From Clavaria fumosa (lineage: Eukaryota > Basidiomycota > Agaricomycetes > Agaricales > Clavariaceae): 64,000 nucleotides of DNA. The notes under the pieces are model-generated. The model ran no database searches, had not been told where the DNA came from, and saw only the letters and a list, made by a program, of their open reading frames with translations. A program made the translations under genes and the position numbers. The DNA lies in contig CATOQE010000001.1 of assembly GCA_951802425.1 (NCBI GenBank), forward strand, positions 1 to 64,000, in the 5' to 3' direction. Shown piece after piece: positions 12,001 to 56,871 of the stretch (the first letter of the stretch is position 1; each line of letters begins with the position of its first letter).

Positions 12001-15000
12001 CTCTCTCCCCTCCCATCACCCACAAAGCAACAATTCCACCATACAGTCAGAATCCAGTTCTCACAGTCCTCACACAAGTTTGTACTTGTGGTGGCACCTA
12101 ATCAAATGGGATCACATTGAAAGATTGAGTATAGTGCATGAATAATACACCCTGACTTTGTTTCAATTACTCTGCCACATCCAGGACTACAGTTGCCTTC
12201 CTACAAACCTAAACAGCACAAGTACCGTACAAGTTTGCAGGCCTCACAGCACAAGATCTAACCGTGAAAATCTCTTGAAATTGATCATGGATGCTCTAAA
12301 TGATGACCACTATCATATAACATGCTAAACAGACCAAACTGTTTTTCTGCAAATGGTCCCTTGTTGCTCCTATCCTAACAGCATAGTCCTTGTGCAGATG
12401 GAGCATCTGCGCTTTCTTTCACTGCAAGCTAACCACTCAAGCTAGTCTTTTGAAATTTTGTGTGCCTATATCTACCCCTCTAATCTTCAATTTCCATGGT
12501 TTACATTTTTCCCAAACTCATTTCCCAATGCATGCCAAAGCTGCTGACTGAACTAGTCAAAATTCTCCCGTTTGTCAAAACCAACCATAGGATTCCAAAA
12601 CAAATGGAATGCTATACTGGGCAATCCTATACCTATCATATTCCATCCCTCTCTCTCCCCTCCCATCACCCACAAAGCAACAATTCCACCATACAGTCAG
12701 AATCCAGTTCTCACAGTCCTCACACAAGTTTGTACTTGTGGTGGCACCTAATCAAATGGGATCACATTGAAAGATTGAGTATAGTGCATGAATAATACAC
12801 CCTGACTTTGTTTCAATTACTCTGCCACATCCAGGACTACAGTTGCCTTCCTACAAACCTAAACAGCACAAGTACCGTACAAGTTTGCAGGCCTCACAGC
12901 ACAAGATCTAACCGTGAAAATCTCTTGAAATTGATCATGGATGCTCTAAATGATGACCACTATCATATAACATGCTAAACAGACCAAACTGTTTTTCTGC
13001 AAATGGTCCCTTGTTGCTCCTATCCTAACAGCATAGTCCTTGTGCAGATGGAGCATCTGCGCTTTCTTTCACTGCAAGCTAACCACTCAAGCTAGTCTTT
13101 TGAAATTTTGTGTGCCTATATCTACCCCTCTAATCTTCAATTTCCATGGTTTACATTTTTCCCAAACTCATTTCCCAATGCATGCCAAAGCTGCTGACTG
13201 AACTAGTCAAAATTCTCCCGTTTGTCAAAACCAACCATAGGATTCCAAAACAAATGGAATGCTATACTGGGCAATCCTATACCTATCATATTCCATCCCT
13301 CTCTCTCCCCTCCCATCACCCACAAAGCAACAATTCCACCATACAGTCAGAATCCAGTTCTCACAGTCCTCACACAAGTTTGTACTTGTGGTGGCACCTA
13401 ATCAAATGGGATCACATTGAAAGATTGAGTATAGTGCATGAATAATACACCCTGACTTTGTTTCAATTACTCTGCCACATCCAGGACTACAGTTGCCTTC
13501 CTACAAACCTAAACAGCACAAGTACCGTACAAGTTTGCAGGCCTCACAGCACAAGATCTAACCGTGAAAATCTCTTGAAATTGATCATGGATGCTCTAAA
13601 TGATGACCACTATCATATAACATGCTAAACAGACCAAACTGTTTTTCTGCAAATGGTCCCTTGTTGCTCCTATCCTAACAGCATAGTCCTTGTGCAGATG
13701 GAGCATCTGCGCTTTCTTTCACTGCAAGCTAACCACTCAAGCTAGTCTTTTGAAATTTTGTGTGCCTATATCTACCCCTCTAATCTTCAATTTCCATGGT
13801 TTACATTTTTCCCAAACTCATTTCCCAATGCATGCCAAAGCTGCTGACTGAACTAGTCAAAATTCTCCCGTTTGTCAAAACCAACCATAGGATTCCAAAA
13901 CAAATGGAATGCTATACTGGGCAATCCTATACCTATCATATTCCATCCCTCTCTCTCCCCTCCCATCACCCACAAAGCAACAATTCCACCATACAGTCAG
14001 AATCCAGTTCTCACAGTCCTCACACAAGTTTGTACTTGTGGTGGCACCTAATCAAATGGGATCACATTGAAAGATTGAGTATAGTGCATGAATAATACAC
14101 CCTGACTTTGTTTCAATTACTCTGCCACATCCAGGACTACAGTTGCCTTCCTACAAACCTAAACAGCACAAGTACCGTACAAGTTTGCAGGCCTCACAGC
14201 ACAAGATCTAACCGTGAAAATCTCTTGAAATTGATCATGGATGCTCTAAATGATGACCACTATCATATAACATGCTAAACAGACCAAACTGTTTTTCTGC
14301 AAATGGTCCCTTGTTGCTCCTATCCTAACAGCATAGTCCTTGTGCAGATGGAGCATCTGCGCTTTCTTTCACTGCAAGCTAACCACTCAAGCTAGTCTTT
14401 TGAAATTTTGTGTGCCTATATCTACCCCTCTAATCTTCAATTTCCATGGTTTACATTTTTCCCAAACTCATTTCCCAATGCATGCCAAAGCTGCTGACTG
14501 AACTAGTCAAAATTCTCCCGTTTGTCAAAACCAACCATAGGATTCCAAAACAAATGGAATGCTATACTGGGCAATCCTATACCTATCATATTCCATCCCT
14601 CTCTCTCCCCTCCCATCACCCACAAAGCAACAATTCCACCATACAGTCAGAATCCAGTTCTCACAGTCCTCACACAAGTTTGTACTTGTGGTGGCACCTA
14701 ATCAAATGGGATCACATTGAAAGATTGAGTATAGTGCATGAATAATACACCCTGACTTTGTTTCAATTACTCTGCCACATCCAGGACTACAGTTGCCTTC
14801 CTACAAACCTAAACAGCACAAGTACCGTACAAGTTTGCAGGCCTCACAGCACAAGATCTAACCGTGAAAATCTCTTGAAATTGATCATGGATGCTCTAAA
14901 TGATGACCACTATCATATAACATGCTAAACAGACCAAACTGTTTTTCTGCAAATGGTCCCTTGTTGCTCCTATCCTAACAGCATAGTCCTTGTGCAGATG

Positions 15001-18000
15001 GAGCATCTGCGCTTTCTTTCACTGCAAGCTAACCACTCAAGCTAGTCTTTTGAAATTTTGTGTGCCTATATCTACCCCTCTAATCTTCAATTTCCATGGT
15101 TTACATTTTTCCCAAACTCATTTCCCAATGCATGCCAAAGCTGCTGACTGAACTAGTCAAAATTCTCCCGTTTGTCAAAACCAACCATAGGATTCCAAAA
15201 CAAATGGAATGCTATACTGGGCAATCCTATACCTATCATATTCCATCCCTCTCTCTCCCCTCCCATCACCCACAAAGCAACAATTCCACCATACAGTCAG
15301 AATCCAGTTCTCACAGTCCTCACACAAGTTTGTACTTGTGGTGGCACCTAATCAAATGGGATCACATTGAAAGATTGAGTATAGTGCATGAATAATACAC
15401 CCTGACTTTGTTTCAATTACTCTGCCACATCCAGGACTACAGTTGCCTTCCTACAAACCTAAACAGCACAAGTACCGTACAAGTTTGCAGGCCTCACAGC
15501 ACAAGATCTAACCGTGAAAATCTCTTGAAATTGATCATGGATGCTCTAAATGATGACCACTATCATATAACATGCTAAACAGACCAAACTGTTTTTCTGC
15601 AAATGGTCCCTTGTTGCTCCTATCCTAACAGCATAGTCCTTGTGCAGATGGAGCATCTGCGCTTTCTTTCACTGCAAGCTAACCACTCAAGCTAGTCTTT
15701 TGAAATTTTGTGTGCCTATATCTACCCCTCTAATCTTCAATTTCCATGGTTTACATTTTTCCCAAACTCATTTCCCAATGCATGCCAAAGCTGCTGACTG
15801 AACTAGTCAAAATTCTCCCGTTTGTCAAAACCAACCATAGGATTCCAAAACAAATGGAATGCTATACTGGGCAATCCTATACCTATCATATTCCATCCCT
15901 CTCTCTCCCCTCCCATCACCCACAAAGCAACAATTCCACCATACAGTCAGAATCCAGTTCTCACAGTCCTCACACAAGTTTGTACTTGTGGTGGCACCTA
16001 ATCAAATGGGATCACATTGAAAGATTGAGTATAGTGCATGAATAATACACCCTGACTTTGTTTCAATTACTCTGCCACATCCAGGACTACAGTTGCCTTC
16101 CTACAAACCTAAACAGCACAAGTACCGTACAAGTTTGCAGGCCTCACAGCACAAGATCTAACCGTGAAAATCTCTTGAAATTGATCATGGATGCTCTAAA
16201 TGATGACCACTATCATATAACATGCTAAACAGACCAAACTGTTTTTCTGCAAATGGTCCCTTGTTGCTCCTATCCTAACAGCATAGTCCTTGTGCAGATG
16301 GAGCATCTGCGCTTTCTTTCACTGCAAGCTAACCACTCAAGCTAGTCTTTTGAAATTTTGTGTGCCTATATCTACCCCTCTAATCTTCAATTTCCATGGT
16401 TTACATTTTTCCCAAACTCATTTCCCAATGCATGCCAAAGCTGCTGACTGAACTAGTCAAAATTCTCCCGTTTGTCAAAACCAACCATAGGATTCCAAAA
16501 CAAATGGAATGCTATACTGGGCAATCCTATACCTATCATATTCCATCCCTCTCTCTCCCCTCCCATCACCCACAAAGCAACAATTCCACCATACAGTCAG
16601 AATCCAGTTCTCACAGTCCTCACACAAGTTTGTACTTGTGGTGGCACCTAATCAAATGGGATCACATTGAAAGATTGAGTATAGTGCATGAATAATACAC
16701 CCTGACTTTGTTTCAATTACTCTGCCACATCCAGGACTACAGTTGCCTTCCTACAAACCTAAACAGCACAAGTACCGTACAAGTTTGCAGGCCTCACAGC
16801 ACAAGATCTAACCGTGAAAATCTCTTGAAATTGATCATGGATGCTCTAAATGATGACCACTATCATATAACATGCTAAACAGACCAAACTGTTTTTCTGC
16901 AAATGGTCCCTTGTTGCTCCTATCCTAACAGCATAGTCCTTGTGCAGATGGAGCATCTGCGCTTTCTTTCACTGCAAGCTAACCACTCAAGCTAGTCTTT
17001 TGAAATTTTGTGTGCCTATATCTACCCCTCTAATCTTCAATTTCCATGGTTTACATTTTTCCCAAACTCATTTCCCAATGCATGCCAAAGCTGCTGACTG
17101 AACTAGTCAAAATTCTCCCGTTTGTCAAAACCAACCATAGGATTCCAAAACAAATGGAATGCTATACTGGGCAATCCTATACCTATCATATTCCATCCCT
17201 CTCTCTCCCCTCCCATCACCCACAAAGCAACAATTCCACCATACAGTCAGAATCCAGTTCTCACAGTCCTCACACAAGTTTGTACTTGTGGTGGCACCTA
17301 ATCAAATGGGATCACATTGAAAGATTGAGTATAGTGCATGAATAATACACCCTGACTTTGTTTCAATTACTCTGCCACATCCAGGACTACAGTTGCCTTC
17401 CTACAAACCTAAACAGCACAAGTACCGTACAAGTTTGCAGGCCTCACAGCACAAGATCTAACCGTGAAAATCTCTTGAAATTGATCATGGATGCTCTAAA
17501 TGATGACCACTATCATATAACATGCTAAACAGACCAAACTGTTTTTCTGCAAATGGTCCCTTGTTGCTCCTATCCTAACAGCATAGTCCTTGTGCAGATG
17601 GAGCATCTGCGCTTTCTTTCACTGCAAGCTAACCACTCAAGCTAGTCTTTTGAAATTTTGTGTGCCTATATCTACCCCTCTAATCTTCAATTTCCATGGT
17701 TTACATTTTTCCCAAACTCATTTCCCAATGCATGCCAAAGCTGCTGACTGAACTAGTCAAAATTCTCCCGTTTGTCAAAACCAACCATAGGATTCCAAAA
17801 CAAATGGAATGCTATACTGGGCAATCCTATACCTATCATATTCCATCCCTCTCTCTCCCCTCCCATCACCCACAAAGCAACAATTCCACCATACAGTCAG
17901 AATCCAGTTCTCACAGTCCTCACACAAGTTTGTACTTGTGGTGGCACCTAATCAAATGGGATCACATTGAAAGATTGAGTATAGTGCATGAATAATACAC

Positions 18001-18587
18001 CCTGACTTTGTTTCAATTACTCTGCCACATCCAGGACTACAGTTGCCTTCCTACAAACCTAAACAGCACAAGTACCGTACAAGTTTGCAGGCCTCACAGC
18101 ACAAGATCTAACCGTGAAAATCTCTTGAAATTGATCATGGATGCTCTAAATGATGACCACTATCATATAACATGCTAAACAGACCAAACTGTTTTTCTGC
18201 AAATGGTCCCTTGTTGCTCCTATCCTAACAGCATAGTCCTTGTGCAGATGGAGCATCTGCGCTTTCTTTCACTGCAAGCTAACCACTCAAGCTAGTCTTT
18301 TGAAATTTTGTGTGCCTATATCTACCCCTCTAATCTTCAATTTCCATGGTTTACATTTTTCCCAAACTCATTTCCCAATGCATGCCAAAGCTGCTGACTG
18401 AACTAGTCAAAATTCTCCCGTTTGTCAAAACCAACCATAGGATTCCAAAACAAATGGAATGCTATACTGGGCAATCCTATACCTATCATATTCCATCCCT
18501 CTCTCTCCCCTCCCATCACCCACAAAGCAACAATTCCACCATACAGTCAGAATCCAGTTCTCACAGTCCTCACACAAGTTTGTACTT
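1..18587. repeat. Satellite array, 650-bp unit, about 28.6 copies
   Basis: Head-to-tail repeats start at 1, 651, 1301 and so on to 18201; the last copy breaks off after about 387 bp at 18587. By eye I found no difference between copies, and an identical 300-bp open frame recurs every 650 bp (146-445, 796-1095 and so on). The array runs off the left edge, so its true length is unknown. The 99-codon frame in each unit has no recognisable domain, and it is interrupted in the diverged single copy at 34020, so I do not call it a gene. Identity across 18 kb points to recent amplification or strong homogenisation. Whether it is centromeric or subtelomeric cannot be told from here. Confidence 0.97.
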
Positions 18588-18969
18588 AGCTGTGGCACCC
18601 TAATAAGGACCCCACATGAGATATTCCCAAAAAAAAAAGTCCCCACTTTTAGTCCTCATTATGTCTTTAGTGATGTTTACTCTCATTTGGTGCTTTCCCT
18701 CAAAACTTTTTTCTCACCCCAAAAATTCATTTAGGGTTCCTGGGGTCTTCCAGCAGAATTTGAAATATGGTAGTTGTGAAGTAGTTATTAGTGCTGTTTA
18801 GAAGAATATATGCAGCTGACTGAATGCTGCATGTATGAATGTTGATATTGTCACATCATGAGGTGGGTCACATGGTGATGCTTGTGACCATGGGGTAATG
18901 TGAATAAGACTAATGTATCCATGTGGCATGTCATGTGCCAGATGAAGGGATTGTGCCATGGCATATCAT
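18588..18969. other. Satellite-edge flank, no gene
   Basis: The last satellite unit stops at 18587 and is followed by about 140 bp of sequence found only here, including an A10 run near 18630. From 18730 on the sequence is shared, with substitutions and small gaps, with 34438-34722. No open frame with recognisable similarity was seen. Confidence 0.7.
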
Positions 18970-31326: not shown

Positions 31327-33094
31327 AATTTTGTTCCCACATTTCATCAGTCTTTCTTGTCTAGGTGGCTAACATTATTATGCCTTCTTGTCTCACTACC
31401 CATGGTGGGCCTTCTTCTTCCATTCTATCCAGCATCCATTCAAGCCCTCCTCTATCTGAAGTGCTCCCTGCTGACCCTGTGGCACTATCAGATAGTCACC
31501 CATATACTAGCATACCATTGCCCTTGCATTATTGTCTGCTCTCCTGTCTCTGCCCAAGTGAATTCATTCAGCAATTGCATCTCATATGTTGATAGCTGTG
31601 GGCCACACACTTTGAAACACATGCATACAAGCCTTGACACTGACTCAACTCACAACTGAACTGACTTTATAAGATGTGGGCATCCATGACACCCACTTTG
31701 ACATACACCTTCAGTCAACCTTGTGCATTATGTGAGCATGGGAGTCCTGGATACCCACTTTGAGATACACATCCAGTCAACTTACTTTGTACATTATGAG
31801 AGGTGTGGGTGTCCTGGCCATTTACATGGCATGTCTCACCTGTAACATGTCCAAGCCTGCATCACATTGGATCTTGGTAGGTATGTAGGACCTAGGTATT
31901 AGCATGCTGGGAGTGAGCAGCACAGGTAGCATAAGTAGGATGGAGGGTGGACAGTCTGAGTGGGGTGAGTGGGTGGCACAAGCAAGGTGAGTAAAGCAGG
32001 AAGCATGCCAGGTGGTGTAGCACCAATGAGGTGAGTGGGCAGACAGCACAAGCAGGGTGGATGGTGCAATTGGGGTGAGCAGCATGGGTGACACCAGTGG
32101 GGCAAGTTTGGTGGACAAGTGCATGTGCATATTATCAGTCAATGATATATCTGCTTGAGTAATGTATGTGTTTACGTTGCTCATGTTTGTCATTAAGCAA
32201 TGACTGATGAGCATGAGCAGTGCCAGGATGACAAACATGAGCACAGTAAACACATACATTACTCAAGCAGATATATCATTGACTGATAATATGCACATGC
32301 ACTTGTCCACCAAACTTGCCCCACTGGTGTCACCCATGCTGCTCACCCCAATTGCACCATCCACCCTGCTTGTGCTGTCTGCCCACTCACCTCATTGGTG
32401 CTACACCACCTGGCATGCTTCCTGCTTTACTCACCTTGCTTGTGCCACCCACTCACCCCACTCAGACTGTCCACCCTCCATCCTACTTATGCTACCTGTG
32501 CTGCTCACTCCCAGCATGCTAATACCTAGGTCCTACATACCTACCAAGATCCAATGTGATGCAGGCTTGGACATGTTACAGGTGAGACATGCCATGTAAA
32601 TGGCCAGGACACCCACACCTCTCATAATGTACAAAGTAAGTTGACTGGATGTGTATCTCAAAGTGGGTATCCAGGACTCCCATGCTCACATAATGCACAA
32701 GGTTGACTGAAGGTGTATGTCAAAGTGGGTGTCATGGATGCCCACATCTTATAAAGTCAGTTCAGTTGTGAGTTGAGTCAGTGTCAAGGCTTGTATGCAT
32801 GTGTTTCAAAGTGTGTGGCCCACAGCTATCAACATATGAGATGCAATTGCTGAATGAATTCACTTGGGCAGAGACAGGAGAGCAGACAATAATGCAAGGG
32901 CAATGGTATGCTAGTATATGGGTGACTATCTGATAGTGCCACAGGGTCAGCAGGGAGCACTTCAGATAGAGGAGGGCTTGAATGGATGCTGGATAGAATG
33001 GAAGAAGAAGGCCCACCATGGGTAGTGAGACAAGAAGGCATAATAATGTTAGCCACCTAGACAAGAAAGACTGATGAAATGTGGGAACAAAATT
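31327..33094. repeat. Large inverted repeat, 867-bp arms, 34-bp spacer
   Basis: Left arm 31327-32193 and right arm 32228-33094 are reverse complements with no indel: paired positions always sum to 64421. The only mismatches I noticed are two bases close to the spacer. Both arms therefore give the same open frames (31267-31659 forward mirrors 33064-32762 reverse; 32259-31822 mirrors 32207-32599), none with a recognisable domain. There is no flanking duplication. It may be a foldback-type element, an inverted duplication, or an assembly/read chimera; a transcript would form a long hairpin. Confidence 0.93.
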
Positions 33095-33285: not shown

Positions 33286-34019
33286 TTAGGGCCTGGTTGG
33301 ATTGACTGGGCCCAGTTGGATCACCTTGGGGCATGGTTGGATTAACCCAGGGCATGGTTGGATTGACCCAGGGCATGGTTGGATCACCTTGGGGCCTGGT
33401 TGGATCTACTCAGAGCATGGTTGGATTGACCCAGGGCATGGTTGGATCACCCTGAGGCATGGTTGGATCCACTCAGAGCATGGTTGGATTGACCCAGGGC
33501 ATGGTTGGATTAACCCAGGGCCTGGTTGGATCTACTTGGGGCATGGTTGGATCTACTTGGGGCATGGTTGGATCACCCTGAGGCATGGTTGGATCTACTT
33601 GGGGCATGGTTGGATTAACCCAGGGCCTGGTTGGATCTACTTGGGGCCTGGTTGGTTCACCCTGAGGCATGGTTGGATCTACTCAGAGCATGGTTGGATT
33701 GACCTAGGGCATGGTTGGATTAACCCAGGGCCTGGTTGGATCTACTTGGGGCATGGTTGGATCTACTTGGGGCATGGTTGGATTAACCCAGGGCCTGGTT
33801 GGATCTACTTGGGGCCTGGTTGGTTCACCCTGAGGCATGGTTGGATCTACTCAGAGCATGGTTGGATCTACTTGGGGCATGGTTGGATTAACCCAGGGCC
33901 TGGTTGGATCACCCTGAGGCATGGTTGGATTGACCCAGGGCATGGTTGGATCACCCTGTGGTTAGGTTGGATTGACCCAGGGCATGGTTGGATCACCTTG
34001 GGGCCTGGTTGGATCTACT
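33286..34019. repeat. 21-bp minisatellite, about 35 units
   Basis: Units follow GGGCATGGTTGGATYNACCYN, exactly 21 bp, so the frame stays open for 239 codons on the forward strand (33302-34021; heptads such as GHGWIDP). It also stays open for 65 codons on the reverse strand. A higher-order repeat of 8 units (168 bp) is visible: the variant CCTGGTTGGTTCACC recurs at about 33646 and 33814. No start context, signal or partner domain supports a protein, so I call it a non-coding minisatellite. Confidence 0.9.
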
Positions 34020-34437
34020 AATAGCATAGTCCTTGTGCAGATGGAGCATCTGCGCTTTCTTTCACTGCAAGCTAACCACTCAAGCTAGTCTTTTGAAATT
34101 TTGTGTGCCTATATCTACCCCTCTAATCCTCAATTTCCATGGTTTACATTTTCCCCAAACCTATTTCCCAATGCATGGCAGAGCTGCTGACCAAACCAGT
34201 CAAAATTCTCCCATTTATCAAAACCAACCATAGGATTCCAAAACAAATGGAATGCTATACTGGGCCATCCCATACCTATCATATTCCATCCCTCTCTCTC
34301 CCCTCCCATCACCCACAAAGCAACAATTCCAGCATATAGTCAGAATCCAGTTCTCACATCCTCACACAAGTTTGTACTTGTGGTGGCACCTAATCAAAAG
34401 GGATCACATTGAAAGATTGAGTATAGTGCATGAATAA
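34020..34437. repeat. Diverged single copy of the 650-bp satellite unit
   Basis: Matches unit positions about 27-438 with scattered substitutions and small indels, including a stop in the 99-codon frame. It starts directly at the end of the 21-bp minisatellite. It lies in the same orientation as the array. Confidence 0.9.
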
Positions 34438-34722
34438 TTTAGGGTTCCTGGGGTCTTCCAGCAAAATTTGAAATATAGTAGCTGTGAAGTAGTTATTAGA
34501 AGAACATATGCAGCTGACTGATAGCTGCATATATGAATGTTGATGTTGTCATGTCATGAGGTGGGTCACATGGTGATGCTTGTGACCATGGGTAATACTG
34601 GTAATGTGAATAAGACTAATGTATTCATGTGGCATAATGTGCCAGATGAAGGGATTGTGCCATGGCATATCATACATAGTATTGGAGGCTGCTGGTGTGC
34701 CATCATTGTGGTTAGCTGCTGG
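34438..34722. repeat. Duplicate of the satellite-array flank
   Basis: Corresponds to 18730-19016 in the same orientation, including the start of the GCTGCTGGTG block. Together with the preceding unit this is a dispersed duplicate of the array edge. In this copy the satellite unit runs about 50 bp further and the 140-bp segment seen at 18588-18729 is absent. Confidence 0.88.
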
Positions 34723-45000: not shown

Positions 45001-45245
45001 CAGTCAACCAGCAGGTTGCGTTGGAACAGCCAATTCATTCCCAAGATCACATCACATGAGGGGTCAAGATCAGTAAGATGTTAGTCAGATCCATGGGGGA
45101 GAGCTGAATGGAGAGCTGGACTGCTTTGGTAACCCAGATGGAGGTGCCTTGTGAACTACTTGCCATTTCCAGAGATGTCTGCAAAAAGATGAAGGATATG
45201 GTCACTGCCCACCGTGTTCTGGTCATGGTCTCTGCAGTGCAGGAT
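42022..45245 (-). pseudogene. Gypsy-2a pol (chromodomain lineage), decayed
   Basis: Reverse strand, order protease end - RT - RNase H - integrase - chromodomain. Seen: DVILGMNWLF (about 45050), a pre-RT segment (VPEEYRNFLDIFSKKKAD), RT with [13 protein letters not shown] and the catalytic YLDD (44255-44244), and RNase H (near 43755-43560). The integrase has a zinc-binding region (HARHDHPLAEHFG...CKSCTTC), core SMDFIEQLP, SDCGSEF and [10 protein letters not shown], and C-terminal RFLGPFEII. The C-terminal chromodomain (LLYLVQWD, then ETSWLPATDLVH and AVLDFH in the next frame) identifies a chromovirus-type Gypsy. Numerous frameshifts and stops make it inactive. It is cut within the protease near 45245, where Gypsy-3 begins on the other strand. 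CpG is almost absent. Confidence 0.88.
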
Positions 45246-48200
45246 ACACTCTACACAAATGTTACGGCTCCGGACACCTCCGATCTCGTTGTGGCAGTCG
45301 ATGCCACTCCGCTCCGCATTGTAGAAGGCATATTGGATGGTCGAATCGCTGTGGAGTGCCTTCTCGACCAGGGAAGTTCGATTGTAGCAATGCGGCGAGA
45401 CGTCTGGGAGAAACTTGGCAATCCACTACACTCTGAACACGTTATTCACATGGAATCCTCTCATGGTACCATTGCTCTGATGCTCAGACTCATCAAAAAT
45501 TCCCCTTTACAGATCGGTCTGTGCACGTTCCATGTTCAAATGCAAGTGGCAGACACACTGCCCTGCGAGGTTCTTGTCAGACGACCATTTTTTATGCTAA
45601 CTGGCTCGCAAACAATCGATCATCCCCATGGGGCCCAGGACCTCATTCTAAATGATCCAAACACAGGAGAACAAATCATAGTGCCAACAAAAGAGCGAAT
45701 GCCGATCTGCAAAACATTGAAGAATAAGAAACCGCATCCGGATTTTTGATGGCTGGAGCCTCGAACATCCGCAAATCTATGGACTCACCTCCGATCAATG
45801 TGGACATGGAAACTATACCCAAATACGAGACTCCAGCCATCTTTTCCACTTCCGTTCAGAATTCCTCATCATCTCTTTGTAAATCTAGCCCCTCTTGATC
45901 CTTGTATCAGTGTCTTGGACATTTCTCTCGATTCTGTTGATTCCCCAGTGTAGTAGGCTGTACAGGTGTTGGCTGCAAATAGATGTTCGCGGCCGGGTTC
46001 TTCAGGGGGTCTTATTACACAATGGGTACACTAGACAGAACCTTGGAGGATGTGGAGGTTGAGTGTAAAAAGGTTCAGAGAGTGAAAATATACGTTGTCC
46101 GGAGTATCCGGTATCGGATCCGATAGAGACCGATGTTTGGATCGAAGGTTCGAGGGGCCGGCGACGACGAAGGCCAGTGGATCAATAGGTACGACGAAGG
46201 GTGAGCTTGCTAAAAATCACAGCACGATGTGGGCGTTCAAAAAGCTGGATTTCCGTATAGTCCGAAGTGTGCTTAAGTACAGTTCTGTAAGTACAGCAAA
46301 TTGGAATGTACGGAAATGTCCGGAAAACATATGGAACAGCGCCATGTCACGTGAAGGGTTATATGGAGGAGTTATATCACAAGGGAATTGAGTAGCTCAG
46401 AGGAATGAAATGTCCGATGTCCGGACCGCTCGTAAACTGAAGGAAAGTGGGGCTGGTACAGCAAAGGGGTATTAGGAACAATGGGCAAAGTACTGCAAAG
46501 GGTTTGAAACGTTCAAATGATTGAATGGTTGAAAGGGATCACAATATGAAATTTACAGCATGTTATATGAAATAAAGGAATGGGAATGGAATAGTGAGTA
46601 TGTCGAGCGCTGACCATGCTGGAGTGATGAAATAGAAAGGCGTGGGCGGTGTGTGAGACCTGCAGGCTGTGATCGTCACGGGGGATTGAAGACCGGGGAG
46701 TCCGATATCGAATATATATCAGATGCTATTGGAGGTTATCGGACGGTGTCGGATGGTTATCAGATCGTATCGCGCGTAATTGCCTTGGATCGCAAAATAT
46801 CCGGATAGTCGGTTTCTGTCATATTTCCGTGTTTAGACCACATATAATCCTTACACCGGTCGCTACCAAATGTGAACCGACACATCCGAATATCGCATAT
46901 CCCCTGTACAACAATTCCTCCGAAATGAAGGTCCTGTCTACAGATGCCATTTTGCCAGTTTACTTAGGAAAGAAATATAAGAAGGTGGCGAACTGCATCA
47001 ATCCAATCAAAGCGACAGTACCCGAAGAATTCTGTATTGTCTGACGATGGCATCCAGACCCCCTAGCCGATATACCGACTCTTCCAACACACCCCCCCGA
47101 TTTCACCCCCAGTCTCTGATATACTCAAGACCAGAAAGATGCGCATAACACAAACCCCACCGGATTCTTATGGCTGGAGGAAGAAGAACTTGTTCACTAT
47201 CTTATCAAAGCCCAGGAAGATGCCTTCGCTTGGATGGAGACTGAAAAAGGACGATTCAACGCAAAATACTTCGATCCAATTATCATCCCGACAGTCAAAC
47301 ATGTCCCCTGGATTTTCAAAAATATACTGATTCCCCCTGGCATCTACAATGAAGTCCTAAAGGTTATCTGAGAAAAGATAGCAGCTGGAGTCTATGAAGA
47401 ATCCAATTCATCTTATCAGTCCCAGTGGTTTTGTGTGTTAAAGAAAGATGGAAAGTCCCTCCGACTCGTACACAACCTCCAGCCATTGAACAAAGTCACT
47501 ATCAGCAACTTGGCAGTTCCCCCAATAATGGAGGTTTTTGCAGAATCATTTGCTGGACGCGGATGCTACGGATCACTCGATTTATTTGTCTCCTTCGATC
47601 AACAGTCTCTCGATGAGTGAAGCCGAGACCTTACCACATTTCAAACCCCTCTCGGAGTCAAACGGCTCACTTGCGTCCTGATGGGATACACCAACATGAC
47701 GCAAATTATGCATGGAGACATCACGCATATCTTGCAAGATGAAATTCCGCATGTCACCATCCCATTTGTAGATGATGTAGCAATTAAGGGCCCAGAAACC
47801 CGATACAAGCTTCCGGATGGCACTTACAAGACGATCCCGGAGAATCCGCAAATATGGCAGTTTGTTTGGGAGCATTTAAATAATGTCAACCGGGTGCTCC
47901 AACGAATCAAGAAAGTCGGAGGAACCATTAATGGCAAGAAAACAACAATTTGCACCCCCGAAACAATAGTTACTGGACACATGTGCACATATGAAGGGCA
48001 AGTTCCGGATGCTTCCAATGTTCAGCGTATTCGAGACTGGCCTCCATGTGAAACACTCACAGATGTCCAATCATTTGCAGACTACTCCAGATATTCATTA
48101 AAAACTATGCAGTACTTGCCTGACCACTCATCAATCTGACTTGCAAGGATGTTCCATTCAGGTTTGAAGAAGAAGAGCAAAATTTGATGGACCGACTTAA

Positions 48201-50365
48201 GGATGTAATAGTCAACTCATCCACCGTTCGACTGATCAATTACCGCTCTGGATGGCCCGTGATTATGGCCATTGACTCGTCCAACATCACAGTCGGCTTT
48301 GCGCTATTTCAAATCAGAGAAGATGGAATCTGGTACCCATCTAGATTCAGTTTGATTACCTGGAATGAACACGAGGCCTGATACTCTCAAGCAAAAATTG
48401 AGTTATACGGACTGTTCTGCGCACTTCAGTCATATCGGATTTACCTTATCGCCTTCCGAAATTCATTGTCAAAATGGGCACTAAATTCATTAAGGGTATG
48501 CTAAACAATCCAGACATCCAACCAAACGCTGCCATGAATCGATGGATTGCTGGTATACTGCTTTTCGATTTCGACCTTGTTCATATTCCTGCAAATAAAC
48601 ACACCAGAGCCGATGGATTATCACGCCGACATGCCACAGATGGTGAGGAAGACACTGAGTCCGAAGATCATGAAGAGTGGATCAATCGGAGCTATGTGTT
48701 CGCCATGGAACACATGAATCGAGCACCGGAATCTTACTACCCATCCGAGGTGCACCCCCCTGGTATCACTCATACTGGCTTCCAACTTCACACAGGATCG
48801 ATGCTACTCAATTCGATGGTACCATCCAATGATTCACCAGCCCCCAACGAATCCTTCACTATCTTTATACCCTGGTCAGATGCAGCAAAGAAAAGATCCG
48901 CAAAATTGAATCTTTCCTTCGAAACCTGATCCATCCTTCTGGCACCAACACAAACCAGTTCCGACGATTAGTCCGCTCCGCATCTGAGTTCTTCATCCTT
49001 GATAACAAGCTATGGTGTCGCTGACCTAACAGATGCCACCAGGTAGTACCTCCGGACTACAAATGGCTTGCAATTATCACTGAGGCACACGATTCACTTG
49101 GCCACAAAGGTGTTTACATTATCCAGACATGTATCTTAAATTGGTTCTGGTGGCTGGTGTTGGATCAAGACGTAAAGTGGTTTGTCCAAACTTGTCACCA
49201 GTGCCAGACTCGGCAAATCTGGAAGATCTTTATTCCACCAATGGTCGCCACACCAGCCGGTCTTTTCCATTGAGCGCACATTGATACCATGTTCCTACCC
49301 AGGGCTCGCAGTTTTCGACTTCTTCTCCATGCCCGATGCTCATTATCCACATATCCGGAAGCGAGACTGCTACGAAACGAGACTGCCCGACTTCTCGGAA
49401 CCTTCATATTTGAAGATATACTGTGCTGATGGGGAGCAGTAGAGGAGATCATTATGGATAACAGTACCCCATTTATCAAGGCCCTCGATTTCCTCAAGAA
49501 ATGATATGGAATCTGTCACATCTGTATCTCCAGATATAATTCCCGCACTAATGGCATCATTGAACATGCCCACCGGTCAGTCCACAAGTCGTTAATCAAA
49601 GCAGCAGATGGAGACAAATCGAAATGGCCAGACGTTTTACCCTCAGTCATTTGGGCAGAACGAACCACAATCCAATGATCCACCAGTCACTCTCCATTTT
49701 ACATCACACATGGCGTTGAACCGCTTTTCCCTTTCAACATATCCGAAGCAACATATCTAATTCTGACCGCCGATGCCCCGATAACTACTGCGGAACTGAT
49801 AGCCCTTCGAGCCTGCCAACTACAAAAATGAGAAGAAGATCTAGCAACAATCGCTGATAAAGTACTTGCTGCCCGAAAACAATCTGTCAAGCAGTTCATC
49901 GACACACACCGGAACTCTATCATCAACTACGATTTCAAACCCGGATCACTGGTATTGATCCGCAATTTGGCTGTAGAAATGGCACTAAATCGGAAGACAA
50001 AACCGTGATTCTTCGGACTGATGATCATTGTTCGCCGAACTCAATACAGTGCATATATCCTCTCGGAACTCGATGGCGCTGTCTCAAAGATCCACTATGC
50101 AGCTTTCCGCATCATTCCATACTATCTGCGATTGCAAACATCGATTCCAGTCACATCTATCATCAATCAAGCGATGGAGATAAAAGAGCACATCTCACGC
50201 TATCAACCACACGAGGCCTCACATAACTCTACCAACACCAAGGATGGGGAAAACCAAACTGCTGAACTATCTGATGAATTTGATAACGAAGCCACCGACA
50301 CCGACGCTCCGAAATCTCGCCCACAACGCTCCGGAGCAACCCGAAACCTTCGGCCTCGCTATTAA
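45246..50365 (+). pseudogene. Gypsy-3 pol (protease-RT-RNase H-integrase), 5' truncated
   Basis: Forward strand, CpG-rich compared with Gypsy-2. The protease has CLLDQGSSIVAM (Asp at about 45366) and is open to 45749. An LTR-B copy splits the region at 45949-46855. Pol resumes with PVATKCEPTHPN at 46856. RT carries SQWFCVLKKDGKSLRLVHNL and the catalytic FVDD (47764-47775); RNase H carries AIDSSNITVGFALFQ (near 48270); then RADGLSRR. Integrase shows TCHQCQTRQ (from about 49192), HIDTMFLP, MDNSTPF and NGIIEHAHR, ending SRPQRSGATRNLRPRY. There is no chromodomain. Stops are almost all TGA at arginine positions (47042, 47369, 47618, 48379, 49271, 49502, 49676, 49829, 50006). Gag is missing. Confidence 0.92.
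45949..46855 (-). mobile_element. Solo LTR-B inserted in the Gypsy-3 protease-RT linker
   Basis: 907 bp from TGTAGTAGGCTG to CCTTACA on the forward strand, that is, the reverse orientation of the LTR-B copies at 52184-56871. The coding sequence reads ...DSPV before it and PVATK after it. The flanks CCAG (45945-45948) and CCGG (46856-46859) would be a 4-bp target duplication with one mismatch, the same length as the duplication of the LTR-B copy at 52628. Confidence 0.85.
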
Positions 50366-50563
50366 GCATTTTTCTCTATCATATCCCTTATTTTTTCTTT
50401 AATCCATTGATCTTTGACCAAAAAATAATAATTGAAATTTCGGACAAGTCCAAACTTTATACCTGGTGTCCCTTTTAACCTTTTTCTTACACTCTCACAT
50501 CCTTTACTCACTTCTCTTACACAATATAGTAATCCAATTGCAAAAGAAAAACACACAAAACAT

Positions 50564-52043
50564 TTATACAGTAAACAGCTCACCAAGGAGAAGCATCCAG
50601 AGCAACTCGGCTCTGGCCTTCACCTGATCAGCCCCCCTTTCCATCATCTGGAGCGCCTCCCTCATAGACGACCCTGCCACCGTCTCCCGCTCTTTACCTT
50701 TCCGACTCGGACCCACCTCCACTTTCTTTCGCTTTGCTGGCGGCTCCACCATCTCCACGCTATCATCATCCTCAATCTCGTCTTCTTCCTCCTCCTCTGG
50801 GGTCGTATCTTCACGGACTGGTGCCCGCGTCGCACCCCGCCTCGGCCTCTTGCTCCCAGTTGCCTCCATCACCTTCAGACCTGCTCCGATACATTAGCTA
50901 ATGCGGATCCGATATTTTCTTGACTTACCTCCGGTGCCGGACACCGCCACCCTCTCGGCTTTCATTCCTGAAACATACCTTTCAGATTATTTCAACACCG
51001 AAATAAAAAGAATATTACTTACCTCGTACAGCCGAGAGACTGCACGACACCTTGTAGGTCCGACACCACTGACATGCCACTCCTTCCACTCCGTAACATG
51101 AGCGCCGCTTCCGGGCGCACGCTTCGCAGGCCGGCTTGTGTTCCTATTTTCCGGATCAGAGACCTAAGGCTCAAAAAAACCCCATTTGACAACTCACCTT
51201 GTCTCCAGGTTGCCATGCAGCTCGGGACCTGATGTCCGCTCCCGCTCCGGTCCTCCTCCCTCGCCCTCGTTTCTCTGCTGCCCCCCTCGCAATCTCAACC
51301 CATACCGGCGTCACTGTCATCCGCCCGCACACCCGATGCTCCAGAATGGGGGGACCTTGATGACTAGGTGATGACCCCCCGGCTCCCGCACTGACTGCCC
51401 CCACGGATCCGTTTCTTCATTTACGCCCAGCTCCACCGCCTCCGTCAGATCCGTCACGGCCGGCACAACTGTTGCTGGTATTGTTGTTGTTGCTGTTGCT
51501 GTTGCTGCTGCTGCTGCACCCCCCTCTCCTCTTCCTCACCGTCCTCGCTCCCGACAATCCGATGCGCCCGGGCGAGTTGCGCCCTCTTCTCGGCAGCCCT
51601 CGCCGCCCCCGTCCGCCTCTCCTCCGCTGCGGCTCTCTCGGCGGCCGCCCTCTCCTCGCTCGTGCGTCTCTTTTCGGCCTCGGCCTCCTCCTGTTTCCTC
51701 GCCTGCTCGGCAGTCCATTCGTCCCCGCAGAGCCTCCGCCACTTCTTGAGCTTTCGCACAACGAGGATGAGTCCTTCGTCCACTTCCACGTCATCATCAA
51801 TTGCAGCAATGTAGCCGGCAAGAAAATCATTCCATAAATTGTCAGTGCAATGTGAAAAAGAAAGAAAGATACACCATGCACAGCATCGCCCCCATACATC
51901 TGCACCCACTCTGCGTACTCACCATCCTGCCCCTGTTCCGGTAATTCTTCACCCAGCGCCATGGCCCGTGCCTCTATCATCGCCTGGACCGCATTTTGGA
52001 AGAGTAGGGAATCGAAGTTTTCCATTGTTGAATAAGTTGACAT
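50564..52043 (-). CDS. Antisense Zn2Cys6-like gene carried by Gypsy-3 (multi-exon)
   Basis: Reverse strand, between Gypsy-3 integrase (ends 50365) and the 3' LTR (starts 52184). The likely start is MSTYSTMENF (52043) or the next Met (52025). The first part holds MIEARAMALGEEL, then after a weak first intron NDFLAGYIAAIDDDVEVDEG, a long E/R/A-rich helix and a Q12 run (near 51500). The second half is clean: introns 51197-51144, 51022-50968 and 50928-50881, all GT-AG and phase-consistent. They join AWQPGDK to a cysteine cluster CEACARKRRSC - seven residues - CQWCRTYKVSC, that is CX2CX6CX7CX2CX6C as in fungal Zn2Cys6 proteins. Next come basic KRPRRGATR, an acidic run (TPEEEEEDEIEDDD) and basic PPAKRKKVEVG, possible nuclear signals; stop at 50564. 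The middle (51200-51460) has frame breaks, so it may be damaged. Function unknown; nucleic-acid binding is inferred. Confidence 0.65.
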
Positions 52044-52726
52044 ATTGCTGTTGATGGAGAAAGCACAAGAGCCTGTTTGGACCCATGCGCGCCCACACAA
52101 CGCATACTTCACAATCAACAAACGATTATTTGGCTTTGTTTGGTTGCAATCGAGGACGGTTGCATTTTCAGCCCCCAGGAGAATGTAAGGATAATATACA
52201 GTTTAAACAAGGAAGCATCACAGATACCGACTATCCAGATATTTTTCGCATCAAAGGCAACAGCGACTGATAGCGTCTGGGACGTCCGATAAATGTCTGA
52301 TATCAGACTCTCCGGTCTCCAGTCCCCCATGATGATCACAGCCTGCAGGTCACACGCACTGTCTACACCCTTCTATTTCATCACTCCAGCATGGTCAGTG
52401 CTCGACATACTTGCTGTTCCATTCCCCTTCCTTTATTTCATATACCATGCTGTAAATTTCATATTGTGCTCCCTTTCAAGTGTCCACTAGTTTAAACATT
52501 TCAAACCCTTTGCAGTATCTTGCCCATTGTTCCTAGTACCCCTTTGCTGTACCAGCTATGCTTTCCTTCATTTTACGAGCGGTCCAGACATGTGCTGGTC
52601 ATCGGACATTTGATTCCTCCAAACCGCTGTAAGGATGATATGCGGTTTAGACAAGGAAACATCACAGATACTGACTATCTGGATATTTAGGCATCAAAGG
52701 CAACAGCGACCGATAACGATCCGATA

Positions 52727-52752
52727 CAGTGTAATACTGTTCCCTTGACCAC
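52727..52752 (+). repeat. Left terminal inverted repeat of the pogo-type element
   Basis: CAGTGTAATACTGTTCCC followed by TTGACCAC; pairs with the reverse complement of 55600-55625 with three mismatches in 26 bp. Confidence 0.88.
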
Positions 52753-52963
52753 AACTTTGAATTATTATTTTCTCCATGTGATGTCAATATTTATTGCCCA
52801 TATTTTTTCACTGACCAACTTAAATGCTTTCTACATGTCCCACAAAATTAAGGAATTATTACTACCAGCAGCGAAGTCTTTCAAATCTCAATGTGAGCTG
52901 GCAGCATTGAAAAGTCACATTTCATCGTTCCTTTGACCAGTGTGACGTCGCATGTGACATCCG

Positions 52964-55193
52964 TCACAGGCCCTCGTCAGCCTCATCTCCATGCAACTCC
53001 CCCACTTGTCCAACATCGTCAGGAAGCATTGGCTTCTTTGGTCGCACCGGCTTTGGGGGCAAATTCCGCTTTGCAATGCCTTCTTCTGTCAGGTGTGCAC
53101 ACTCAGCCTCCCAGGCTAAAATCGCCGCTGCATGTGCGGCCTTCAACTCGTCCCATTGGGCATTGATTGCTGACCTTGCATTCTTCCTTGTAGCCCTGTT
53201 TATTGCCCTCTGTTCCTTCTCGGCAGCCTCCTCTGCCTTCCGCTGTGCCACTGTCCTCAATTTCTCCTCAAACTCATCAGCAGTCAATGCCACAGCCTTG
53301 CCATCAAAGAGCATGGTACGGTCATCCTTCTTCCGGTTCTGCTTGCTATTCAAGGCCTCGTTTTGCTTGTCCAGGAACATGTGCTGGAAGATCAGCTGTG
53401 CAGATTGTCTCTCAAGCATCGAGTCTCGGGCATGAATGTGTGAATGGGCAAGTTTGAGATTTTTGCGGAGTTCTGTGACATGCTTCTCTAGTGTGTTGCG
53501 GCTGATGTATTCTGTTGGCAGTTCTGCCAGCATCCAGTCTGGTTCTGGAAGGTCTGGGGGAGCCTCAAGAACAGGTGCAGGTACGTTGTCAATGGCCCTC
53601 ATCGGTGCTTGTGATACGAGGATAGAACCAGTGGATGTTGCACGGAGCGTCTCTGAGAGCAACTTGATGCGCTTTGAAGCCACAGTCAGAGTGGGATCAA
53701 TGTCCGTATCCCTTGGATGGTGATGCAGCAGTGTGGGGGATGTGAGTTCCTCGTTTTCTATCGGCTGAGTTGAGATTGTTGGTGCGTCAGAGTCCTCTTC
53801 TTCATCATATCGCTGAGCCCGGAAAGCCGCCATGATGCGCCTCACAGGGCTGCTTTGTGGCAGAGGAAAACTGCCCCTCGTAGAGTGAGGGATGCTCGGT
53901 TTCATCTGGCCCACTGTTATCATTCTGGGATCAAATGGATGGATGCCCGTAGCACGGAATGCTGCCAAAACCGTCTCCATATTGAATGCCTTGAGATATG
54001 CCTTCCCAAATATGCTGGTGAAGTCGCTCTTCCCAACCGGTCTCCTATTCTTCTCCTCGAAGGCATTTATCTCATTTTTCCAGACTGCCTTCATCTTTGC
54101 GAAGCAAGCGACATCAAGGCCTTGCAAAGCGTGAGTGCAGTGTGGTGGATAGGCCAGCAGAATGATATTGTTAGCCCGAGCAAACTGCACAACATCAATG
54201 GTGTGATGGGAGCTATGCCCGTCGAGTAGCAAAATTCGTGGTTTGTCAGTGAATCCTTTCTCTTTGGTCTGTGGATTGAAGACTTTCTGGATCCATTCTA
54301 GTGCATGCGCCCCATCTGTCCAACCATTTGGGGAGTGGGAGATCCTGGACAAAAGTTAGTGGCTGTAGTTTGGCTTGGACTTGCATGTACGTCGCTCGTG
54401 CTATGTTGTCTTGACCCCACTTTGACATGAAATTTTGTCCTTTGTAGATGATCATCGGTGTCAGAGCTGTGCCATCAGCACAGATTGTAACAAGTGCAGT
54501 AACATTCTCCCGGTCAGCACCGCCTTGCTTATGTTGGGTCTTTGTGCCTCGCTGGCCAATAACACGTTCAGGGCCTTGATTAGCTGGTGGGAATCCACTC
54601 TCGTCCATCCCGTAGATATTTTCTGGGGGAATGCTGAGATCAACAATGTACTTCTTGACAAGGTCAAACCAGGATTTGACGGCTTCAGGATTCAGTGATT
54701 TCGCCCTCTGCATATCTAAGGGCTTGCTCCAGTGTGTCTGGAGTTTTTCGTGATGTCGGTCCAAGAAACGGAAGACCCATTGCTTGCCAACTGGGTCTGT
54801 ACCTCCCTCGCGACTTGTAATGACTGCATTTGCATAAGATTGAATTGCTTGATGGGAAAGCGGAAAACCGTGATCAGCAGACCCTTGAATGAAGTCAACA
54901 AGGACTTGTTCTTCTGCGACTGATAGTTTCTGTTTCTTAGAATTGAATTCACTGATGGTGGGCACATCTTCCCTCTTTGTGTGGTAGATGAGAGTGGTCC
55001 GGTTGACTCCATACCTCTTCGCAATTGCACGGCCTCCTTGTCTGTTCTCCTTGGGCCTGGCTTGGTCCATTTTGTACTCTAAGATTGCGAGCTTGAGCTT
55101 TGATTCTTTAACTTGAAGCTGCTTGAGATTCTTGACACGCTCTGACAGTGCATGTTTTGTCATTTTGTGCTGAGATTGGCAAGGGTGAACCAA
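52964..55193 (-). CDS. Pogo/Fot1 family transposase, one intron, intact frame
   Basis: Exon 1 is 55193-54391 and exon 2 is 54344-52964. The 46-bp intron 54390-54345 starts GTACATG, has a CTAAC branch site and ends CAG; splicing joins the frames exactly (NIARA-T-ISHSPNGWTDG). The product is 727 aa, or 717 from the Met at 55163, which I prefer because it leads straight into the first helical region. Domains: psq-type helix-turn-helix (RAIAKRYGVNRTTLIYH, about residues 55-71), CENP-B-type DNA-binding domain (about 90-165) and DDE_1 catalytic core with D197 (GMDESGF), D309 (LLLDGHSSH) and D345 (ALQGLDVACF), a DD35D triad. A long charged C-terminal tail (about 500-700) follows. All catalytic residues and both element ends are present, so activity is possible. 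It acts in the nucleus, cutting and pasting at TA sites. Confidence 0.93.
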
Positions 55194-55599
55194 GGAGGAG
55201 GAACGCGATCGGAAGAGAAGCGCGTGCCCAAATTGGGAATGTCACACCTGTCACGTTGAAATCTAGTCAACGAGAACAAGGCCTTCGCATTCGTCGTCAG
55301 GTGCCCAGCTGGACATGAATTATGCATAGGCCAAAAGCCAAATAGAGTAGTTTTCACAGCCATTTTTTTCAAAAATTTATCACCAATTCCTGTTCCACAA
55401 ATCCACTGCCAAAAGTGGATTTGTTCTGTGAACACCTTGCATCAGCGAGACAAAAGCATGCCAAGACGTCAGTTCCGGCCCAATACACTCAAAATTTCCC
55501 CAAGATATACACCATTACACTCATGATTTTCCTACTTAATTTCCAAAATAGACATGTGGCTACTGCGCTTGCTATCTCCCTTTGGTCAAAGGAACTGTA

Positions 55600-55625
55600 G
55601 TGGTCAAAGGACCACTATTACACTG
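55600..55625 (-). repeat. Right terminal inverted repeat of the pogo-type element
   Basis: Reverse complement begins CAGTGTAATAGTGGTCC and ends TTGACCAC. It is followed by the TA target duplicate. Confidence 0.88.
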
Positions 55626-56871
55626 TACTGTCTGATAACATCCGGGACATCTGATAAACATCTGATATCGGACTCTCCGGTCTCCAGTCTGCCATGATGA
55701 TCACAGCCCGCAGGTCATACACACCGCCCACACCTCTCTATTTCATCACTCCAACATGGTCAGCACTCGACATACTCACTATTTCATTCCCCTTCCTTTA
55801 TTTCACATACCATGCTGTAAATTTCATATTGTGATCCCTTTCAACCATCCAATCATTTAAACATTTCAACCCTTTGCAGTGCTTTGCCCATTGTTCCTAG
55901 TACCCCTTTGCTGTACCAGCCACACTTTCCTTCATTTTATGAGCAGTCCAGACATATGCTAGTTATCGGACATTTCATCCCTCCGACTCACTTATGAATT
56001 ATGGCCCTTATATGACCCTGTGCACAATACCGCATTGCCTTCTGTAGCTTCCAGAGATTTCTGTAGGATCGGATTTGCTGTACTTAGAAAAATTGTACAT
56101 AAGTATGTACCAGACTCTATGGAAATCCAGCTTTCTGGACGCCCATATTGCACTGGGATCTTTAGCAGGCTCACCCTTCGTCATACCCATTGATCCGCTA
56201 GCCTTTGTCGTTGCCGGCCCCTTGAACCTTCGATCCGAACATCGGACTCCACTGGATCCGATACCGGATACTTTGGATAACATATATTTTCATTCTCTGA
56301 ACATTTTATACTCAGTCTCTACTTCCTCCAAGGTTCTGTCTAGTGTCTACGTTGTGTAACAAGACCCCCTGAAGAACCAGGCCATGAACACTTGTTTGCA
56401 GCCAACACCAGTACAGCCTACTACACCGCATGACTCATTTATGAATTATGGCCCCTATATGACCTTGTACATGATATTGCATTGCCTTCTGTAGCTTCCA
56501 GAGATTTTCATAGGATCAGATTTGCTGTACTTAGAAAAATGTACATAAGTATGTACCAGACTCTATGGAAATCCAGCTTTTTGAATGCCCACATTGTGCT
56601 GTGATCTTTAGCAGGCTCACCCCTCGTCATACCCATTGATCCACTGGCCTTCATCATTGCCGGCCCCTCGAACTTTCGATCTGAACATCGGACTCCACCG
56701 GATCTGATACTGGATACTTCAGATAACATATATTTTCATTCTCTGAACATTTTACACTCAGCCTCTACATCCTCCAAGGTTCTGTCTAGTGTCTCTGATG
56801 TGTAACAAGACCCCCTGAAGAACCTGGCCATGAACACCCATTTGCAGCCAACACCAGTACAGCCTACTACA

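Follow-up and report, generated by a model that had tools for sequence, protein, structure and literature searches.

The window analysed here, 64,000 nucleotides at the start of contig CATOQE010000001.1 of Clavaria fumosa (assembly GCA_951802425.1), contains a degenerate retrotransposon with a gene on its reverse strand. As the initial annotation had placed it, this gene is situated at 50366-52183, between the end of the integrase (50365) and the 3' LTR, which starts at 52184. The parts of the element and the insertions found in its 3' LTR are the following:

45147..45948, plus strand: protease end of gag-PR, with a protease match below the cut-off; similarity to the young element extends no further upstream than 45147
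46856..50365, plus strand: degenerate pol, the longest listed plus-strand ORF having 152 aa
52184..52627, plus strand: first half (U3 side) of the 3' LTR, in which two CCGA cores remain
56432..56871, plus strand: second half of the same LTR
52628-52736 and 55626-56425: nested solo LTR with CCGC at both sides
52737-55625: DNA transposon in the nested solo LTR, with frames for a Tc5-type DNA-binding (HTH) domain and a DDE_1 endonuclease

The solo LTR thus splits the 3' LTR and is itself interrupted by the 2.9-kb DNA transposon. A more 5' part of gag-PR was not found upstream of 45147 within the window. The segment 45949-46855 was considered as the 5' LTR and ruled out: it is a solo LTR that was inserted into the element in inverted orientation, and it is absent from the copies L018, L020, L021, and L022. 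The DNA transposon, which we take to be pogo-like, has the ends CAGTGTAATA and an apparent TA duplication and is missing from the ten other near-identical copies.

At least 72 matches to this stretch of the window were found in the genome; among the matches listed, 11 are near-identical and full-length (the window included) and others are diverged. Of the ten besides the window, nine (L009-L017) have the inverted solo LTR and L018 is without it; the nested solo LTR is present in all ten. The distance of these copies to the contig ends is 37-293 kb. The shared solo-LTR insertions and the positions near contig ends rule out that the 11 copies are separate transpositions; most simply they are duplicated subtelomeric segments, and the window copy looks like it sits in one of them.

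The structure of the reverse-strand gene was derived from an alignment of 21 non-identical copies including the window, from which the near-identical copies L009-L017 and the rearranged copy L028 were excluded. The copies have in common the ATG at 52025, four introns, and the C-terminus. In the direction of the antisense gene the features are:

52026..52183, minus strand: antisense leader from the ATG to the 3' LTR, a candidate antisense promoter or 5' UTR and the putative site of the polypurine tract of the sense strand
51882..52025, minus strand: exon 1; the ATG (at 52025) and the frame align in the 21 copies, and the edge at 51882 is set by the intron-1 donor
51832..51881, minus strand: intron 1; GT in 21 of 21 copies, AG in 19 of 21, CTGAC ahead of the acceptor in 21 of 21; in the window it ends in GG
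51198..51831, minus strand: exon 2, with a coiled-coil-like EEAEAE segment and a low-complexity linker; frameshifted in the window copy
51144..51197, minus strand: intron 2, GT-AG in 20 of 21 copies
51023..51143, minus strand: exon 3, with the whole cysteine cluster inside
51042..51128, minus strand: Zn2Cys6-like cluster CX2CX6CX7CX2CX6C, within this one exon
50968..51022, minus strand: intron 3, GT-AG in 21 of 21 copies
50929..50967, minus strand: exon 4, from the 21-copy alignment
50881..50928, minus strand: intron 4, GT-AG in 21 of 21 copies, with a CTAAC-like branch sequence in the copies displayed
50564..50880, minus strand: exon 5, with an acidic tract, a KRKK-type basic stretch, and a C-terminal helix-like segment; stop codon at 50566-50564

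Introns 2, 3, and 4 had already been given by the initial annotation, and all of them are GT-AG in the window; the total, however, is not three but four, the intron at 51881-51832 that parts exon 1 from exon 2 having been missed. For this intron a donor at 51872 was replaced by the one at 51881 after the sequence of a young copy. Its acceptor AG is lost in the window copy and in L018, both of which read GG. With this acceptor lost and exon 2 frameshifted, the window copy is unable to encode the whole protein and is a decayed member of the element family; its exon 2 comprises 634 nt compared to 708 nt in the young copy L043. An imprecise deletion extends across intron 2 in L034, but a precise loss of an intron was not observed among the 21 aligned copies. 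The basic, acidic, and basic segments described previously were found in the protein read from the window copy.

The leader is the best conserved part of this region, with the highest mean pairwise identity (0.855) of 11 segments compared in nine copies, and it can be aligned in part even with the distant copy L044. It may hold the antisense promoter, by analogy with gene23 of the plant element Grande, which is described as being transcribed from an upstream promoter in the accessible text of PMC7264820.

The reading frame of the antisense gene is kept by purifying selection. The dN/dS values of L043 versus seven copies range from 0.20 to 0.31. Across 45 pairs of 10 copies, with the sequences cut at the first stop and three extra codons counted at intron 1, the values were 0.21-0.57, and the maximum belongs to a nearly identical pair. 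The whole frame, ATG to C-terminal stop, is open in five older copies (L019, L024, L033, L036, and L038). In pairwise, hence non-independent, comparisons among these five, 53 of 55 gaps in exons are multiples of three, in contrast to 10 of 87 outside the exons. The differences between L043 and L019 amount to 66, 71, and 159 at codon positions 1, 2, and 3, respectively. Contrary to expectation, the introns are about as conserved as the exons (identity of 0.70-0.85 versus 0.77-0.85 in nine copies).

The organization of the element can be seen in the young copy L043. It has stop-to-stop frames of 807 aa (gag-PR) and 1287 aa (RT-RH-IN), and its antisense gene is open over 445 aa in five exons (L043:1982-2125, 2183-2890, 2946-3066, 3122-3160, and 3209-3534). 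The matches of the 807-aa frame to protease and zinc knuckle are all below the Pfam cut-off. In the second frame RT_RNaseH (581-680) and Integrase_H2C2 (850-906) score above the cut-off, and RVT_1 (307-487) reaches 29.3 bits at a cut-off of 29.6. RT-RNase H is therefore found ahead of the integrase in one pol frame, and the element has two TG..CA LTRs with a target-site duplication (TSD); these domains and ends identify an LTR retrotransposon family whose gene order is that of Ty3/Gypsy. In 16 of 19 LTR-flank pairs examined the 4-bp TSDs are exact; in two further pairs a single transition separates the two sites, and the last pair, from a copy with a deletion in the antisense gene (C1:1408333), shows no TSD. 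The LTR pairs are 95.0% and 99.4% identical. Where the two LTRs of one element differ, the differences are nearly all transitions (43/45 in L024, 47/48 in L040/L022, 18/19 in L039/L020, and 10/10 in L041/L021), a pattern like that of C-to-T decay linked to methylation or resembling RIP.

The initial annotation had proposed to check whether full-length copies always have the gene. We used the RT of L043 as query, and the best 40 candidates, which are young copies, all have the antisense gene at the expected place and in the expected orientation, 37 by DNA and three by an exon-5 protein match alone. One of the 37 DNA-matched copies (C1:1408333) shows an internal deletion of the gene. A protein search of the genome with exons 3-5 yielded 225 matches; among those listed, 32 have an identical score and are located at dispersed sites, of which L043 is one. 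The gene belongs to the mobile unit: it accompanies the RT in every listed copy and its coding sequence is conserved, as in the antisense ORFs (aORFs) known from other elements. It is also old in the element, being present in diverged lineages including L044, a deeper lineage with about 61% protein identity in the matched part, the same intron positions, and two stops in frame. Public metagenome proteins include relatives of the exon-2 and exon-5 frames that are 61-92% identical to the query used in each case, and the gene therefore occurs beyond assembly GCA_951802425.1; one scan of viral contigs yielded no relative of exon 2. Two pairs of young LTRs that lie closer together, at C4:3393616-3400037 and at C1:522914-530673, enclose an antisense-gene match, with no RT match among the matches listed; possibly these are non-autonomous copies that retain the gene.

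The initial annotation had described a cysteine cluster with Zn2Cys6 spacing. The spacing CX2CX6CX7CX2CX6C at 51128-51042 of the minus strand fits the range of this class (CX2CX6CX5-12CX2CX6-8C), but the PF00172 profile scores of 15.9 bits (window copy), 11.8 bits (L024), and 11.2 bits (L043) stay below the cut-off of 21 bits. In the profile search that had been suggested as a check, 12 of the 15 exon-3 peptides gave a Zn_clus match at E<=1, the lowest E being 0.0035. The spacing was recovered from 22 sequences with a search pattern that required the cysteines, L023 and L028 not being recovered. In 15 aligned copies, picked for open exon-3 frames, the six cysteines and a lysine three residues past the second cysteine are invariant. 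LAC9 aligns over all six cysteines (E 0.65), and its lysine matches the conserved one. By hhalign, six host zinc clusters aligned in register over five of the six cysteines at P 0.0015 and a probability of 16.8. Among solved structures the one profile match was ZAR1 (E 0.25), which is not a Zn2Cys6 protein. On this evidence the Zn2Cys6 label, which is based on the cysteine spacing, is likely but not proven. GAL4/LAC9-type proteins share the six-cysteine spacing, and LAC9 the lysine as well; the antisense protein differs from them in its weak profile scores and in a coiled-coil-like segment located N-terminal of the cluster. Its sequence further displays KRKK-type basic stretches, an acidic tract, and a C-terminal helix-like segment, and a fungal_trans domain was not among its Pfam matches.

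Zn2Cys6 regulators typically bind CGG/CCG triplets. In the U3 of the young LTR we identified a chain of six CCGA cores at positions 93, 104, 114, 124, 134, and 145, that is 10-11 bp apart. In 1000 dinucleotide shuffles the chain never exceeded two cores, and two is also the maximum within the element's internal region. The array is retained in diverged LTRs, in which, by eye, the losses resemble C-to-T decay. Scanning both strands of the genome for three phased CCGA cores gave 902 matches compared to 155 for the reversed pattern; many of the matches listed are located in these LTRs and others elsewhere. CGG/CCG triplets as such were dropped as LTR-specific evidence because gag-pol shows the same enrichment (z 5.4), as does the antisense gene (z 3.4). 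The phased array could be bound by the antisense protein and constitutes its candidate binding sites.

A second family (C1:1048400-1059700), with LTRs that are 99.4% identical, allowed a comparison of the core positions. This family was found through its array; the presence of an array was therefore selected, but the positions of the cores were not. Blastn similarity between its LTR and the young LTR is confined to 54 bp at the start (80%), a stretch of 22 bp, and about 370 bp at the end (69%). Five CCGA cores are at the same LTR positions in the second family and L033, and four in the second family and either L043 or L031. Random placements did as well as the five shared cores in 2 of 200000 cases, L033 being the best of the three LTRs compared. 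Outside the shared cores, only 24 of 60 positions of the same stretch are identical between the second family and L033. In L045/L046 of the second family another cluster, of TCGG cores in the opposite orientation and 10-12 bp apart, is present near the 3' end of the LTR (about 737-770).

Taken together, the best explanation of the whole is in our opinion a spliced antisense regulator that binds the LTRs of its own element, and on balance we consider this explanation probable. The antisense gene would be transcribed toward pol from a promoter in the leader of about 160 bp or in the adjacent U3, and splicing of the transcript would give a protein of about 445 aa. With its Zn2Cys6-like cluster, acidic tract, and basic stretches this protein would enter the nucleus and bind the LTRs of its own element at the phased CCGA array in U3. 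The bound protein would tune both sense (gag-pol) and antisense transcription, either as an activator or as a repressor, and in this way the element may regulate itself. The introns would persist since only the sense RNA, in which they go unrecognized, is reverse-transcribed. That introns survive through the antisense orientation had been proposed by the initial annotation, and our data support this: the gene is antisense to gag-pol, its introns are conserved, and the lack of precise intron loss is as expected if the sense RNA alone is reverse-transcribed.

It is also conceivable, although we regard it as unlikely, that the protein acts as an accessory factor in replication or integration (nuclear entry, pre-integration complex, or target-site choice) and not as a transcription regulator. 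Nuclear roles are suspected for the antisense proteins of plants in the accessible text of PMC7264820, and the protein has basic stretches of the nuclear-signal type. All 16 exact 4-bp TSDs have a CG centre and 11 of them read NCGG, which suggests that integration prefers CpG sites, the CpG content of the genome not being factored into these counts. A CGG-reading zinc cluster could contribute to this preference, but an integrase alone is able to yield such a target preference, and a conserved phased array located in U3 is more in keeping with promoter binding. The gene-deleted copy at C1:1408333 is weakly informative in this respect since there is no TSD in its flanks and the deletion may postdate the insertion. 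Both functions could be combined in a protein that reads the helically phased CCG sites in U3 for two-way transcription control and also helps to steer the integrase to CpG sites of the NCGG type; such steering would explain the CG centre in all 16 exact TSDs, but we consider this dual role distinctly unlikely.

Alternatively the antisense transcript could act as RNA (by dsRNA, small RNAs, or transcriptional interference), the protein being secondary. The gene and pol face each other, so that RNAs of the two strands would pair over about 1.5 kb; for plant elements a function of this kind is discussed in the accessible text of PMC7264820. The dN/dS values of 0.20-0.31 and the frame-keeping gaps, however, demonstrate that the protein sequence matters, which makes this very unlikely as the principal function; the conservation is compatible with an antisense-RNA role in addition to that of the protein. 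That the gene is a captured host zinc-cluster gene, either cargo benefiting the host or there by chance, appears highly improbable. Zn2Cys6 domains are indeed common in the genome, with 46 PF00172 matches, 10 of them being near-identical copies of the element. The gene is present in diverged lineages including L044 with its same intron positions and is hence old, and the listed matches of exons 3-5 are many-copy. Finally, overlapping frames exist on both strands of the region, as might be produced by chance or by a GC-rich repeat. In view of the conserved introns, the frame-keeping gaps, the excess of third-position differences, and the invariant cysteines the likelihood of such an artefact is practically negligible, and the reading as a gene is confirmed.

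Antisense genes in Gypsy elements are known, namely from Grande, Retand, and Boty (brtn), and a spliced zinc-cluster variant did not turn up in our literature search. The initial annotation knew of no fungal Gypsy element that has a zinc-cluster protein in this arrangement. This calls for some qualification: an antisense gene in a fungal Gypsy had already been described in Boty (BcGypsy1) of Botrytis cinerea (brtn; Zhao 2011, as cited in the accessible text of PMC7264820, PMC8365987, and PMC4227169). Like the element studied here, Boty is fungal and of the Gypsy type and has an additional gene in antisense orientation between pol and the 3' LTR, according to the accessible text of PMC7264820. 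The gag-pol of Boty-like elements has a chromodomain according to the accessible text of PMC4227169, whereas Pfam shows none in the present element. Neither a zinc cluster nor an LTR site array is mentioned for brtn in the accessible parts of these papers.

The plant aORFs, that is gene23 of Grande and those of RIRE2, Retand (TRP28), and PvRetro13, are alike in position, orientation, presence in most copies, and a suspected nuclear or DNA-binding role, but encode different protein domains (TRP28, SMC), as stated in the accessible text of PMC7264820 and PMC11963269. The word "intron" is absent from the main text of both papers. In the accessible part of PMC5408684, on additional ORFs of bdelloid elements, no comparable antisense genes were found. 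PMC7264820 (accessible text) describes as undetermined what the antisense genes of LTR retrotransposons do. The present family offers a testable function, since it combines a conserved intron-bearing gene, a DNA-binding-like protein, a matching LTR array, and many young dispersed copies. Among the best-ranked papers of our literature search, to which subscription papers were largely inaccessible, none was on a fungal element with a spliced zinc-cluster gene in antisense orientation.

HBZ is a spliced gene, and HBZ and APH-2 are of the bZIP type. They resemble the present gene in adjoining the 3' LTR in antisense orientation and in encoding a nuclear regulator, and HBZ also in being spliced; this is an analogy of arrangement alone, because they have no zinc cluster and host and virus are unrelated. 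As for an HBZ-like action on the own LTR, the present element has a candidate site array alone. Both genes are mentioned as antisense genes of HTLV-1 and HTLV-2, respectively, in the accessible text of PMC7264820 and PMC11963269. If the proposed regulation is true, the family would be a fungal counterpart to the retroviral antisense regulators, built on a domain resembling those of fungal transcription factors. The introns, if confirmed by spliced RNA, would also mark the strand that is reverse-transcribed.

Two further observations concern other parts of the window. The contig starts with about 28 near-identical tandem units of 650 bp (1-18604), with a related piece at 34018-34438; these units are likely a subtelomeric satellite. 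At 31327-33094 an inverted self-match of about 1.77 kb with 98.9% identity forms a long, almost perfect palindrome.
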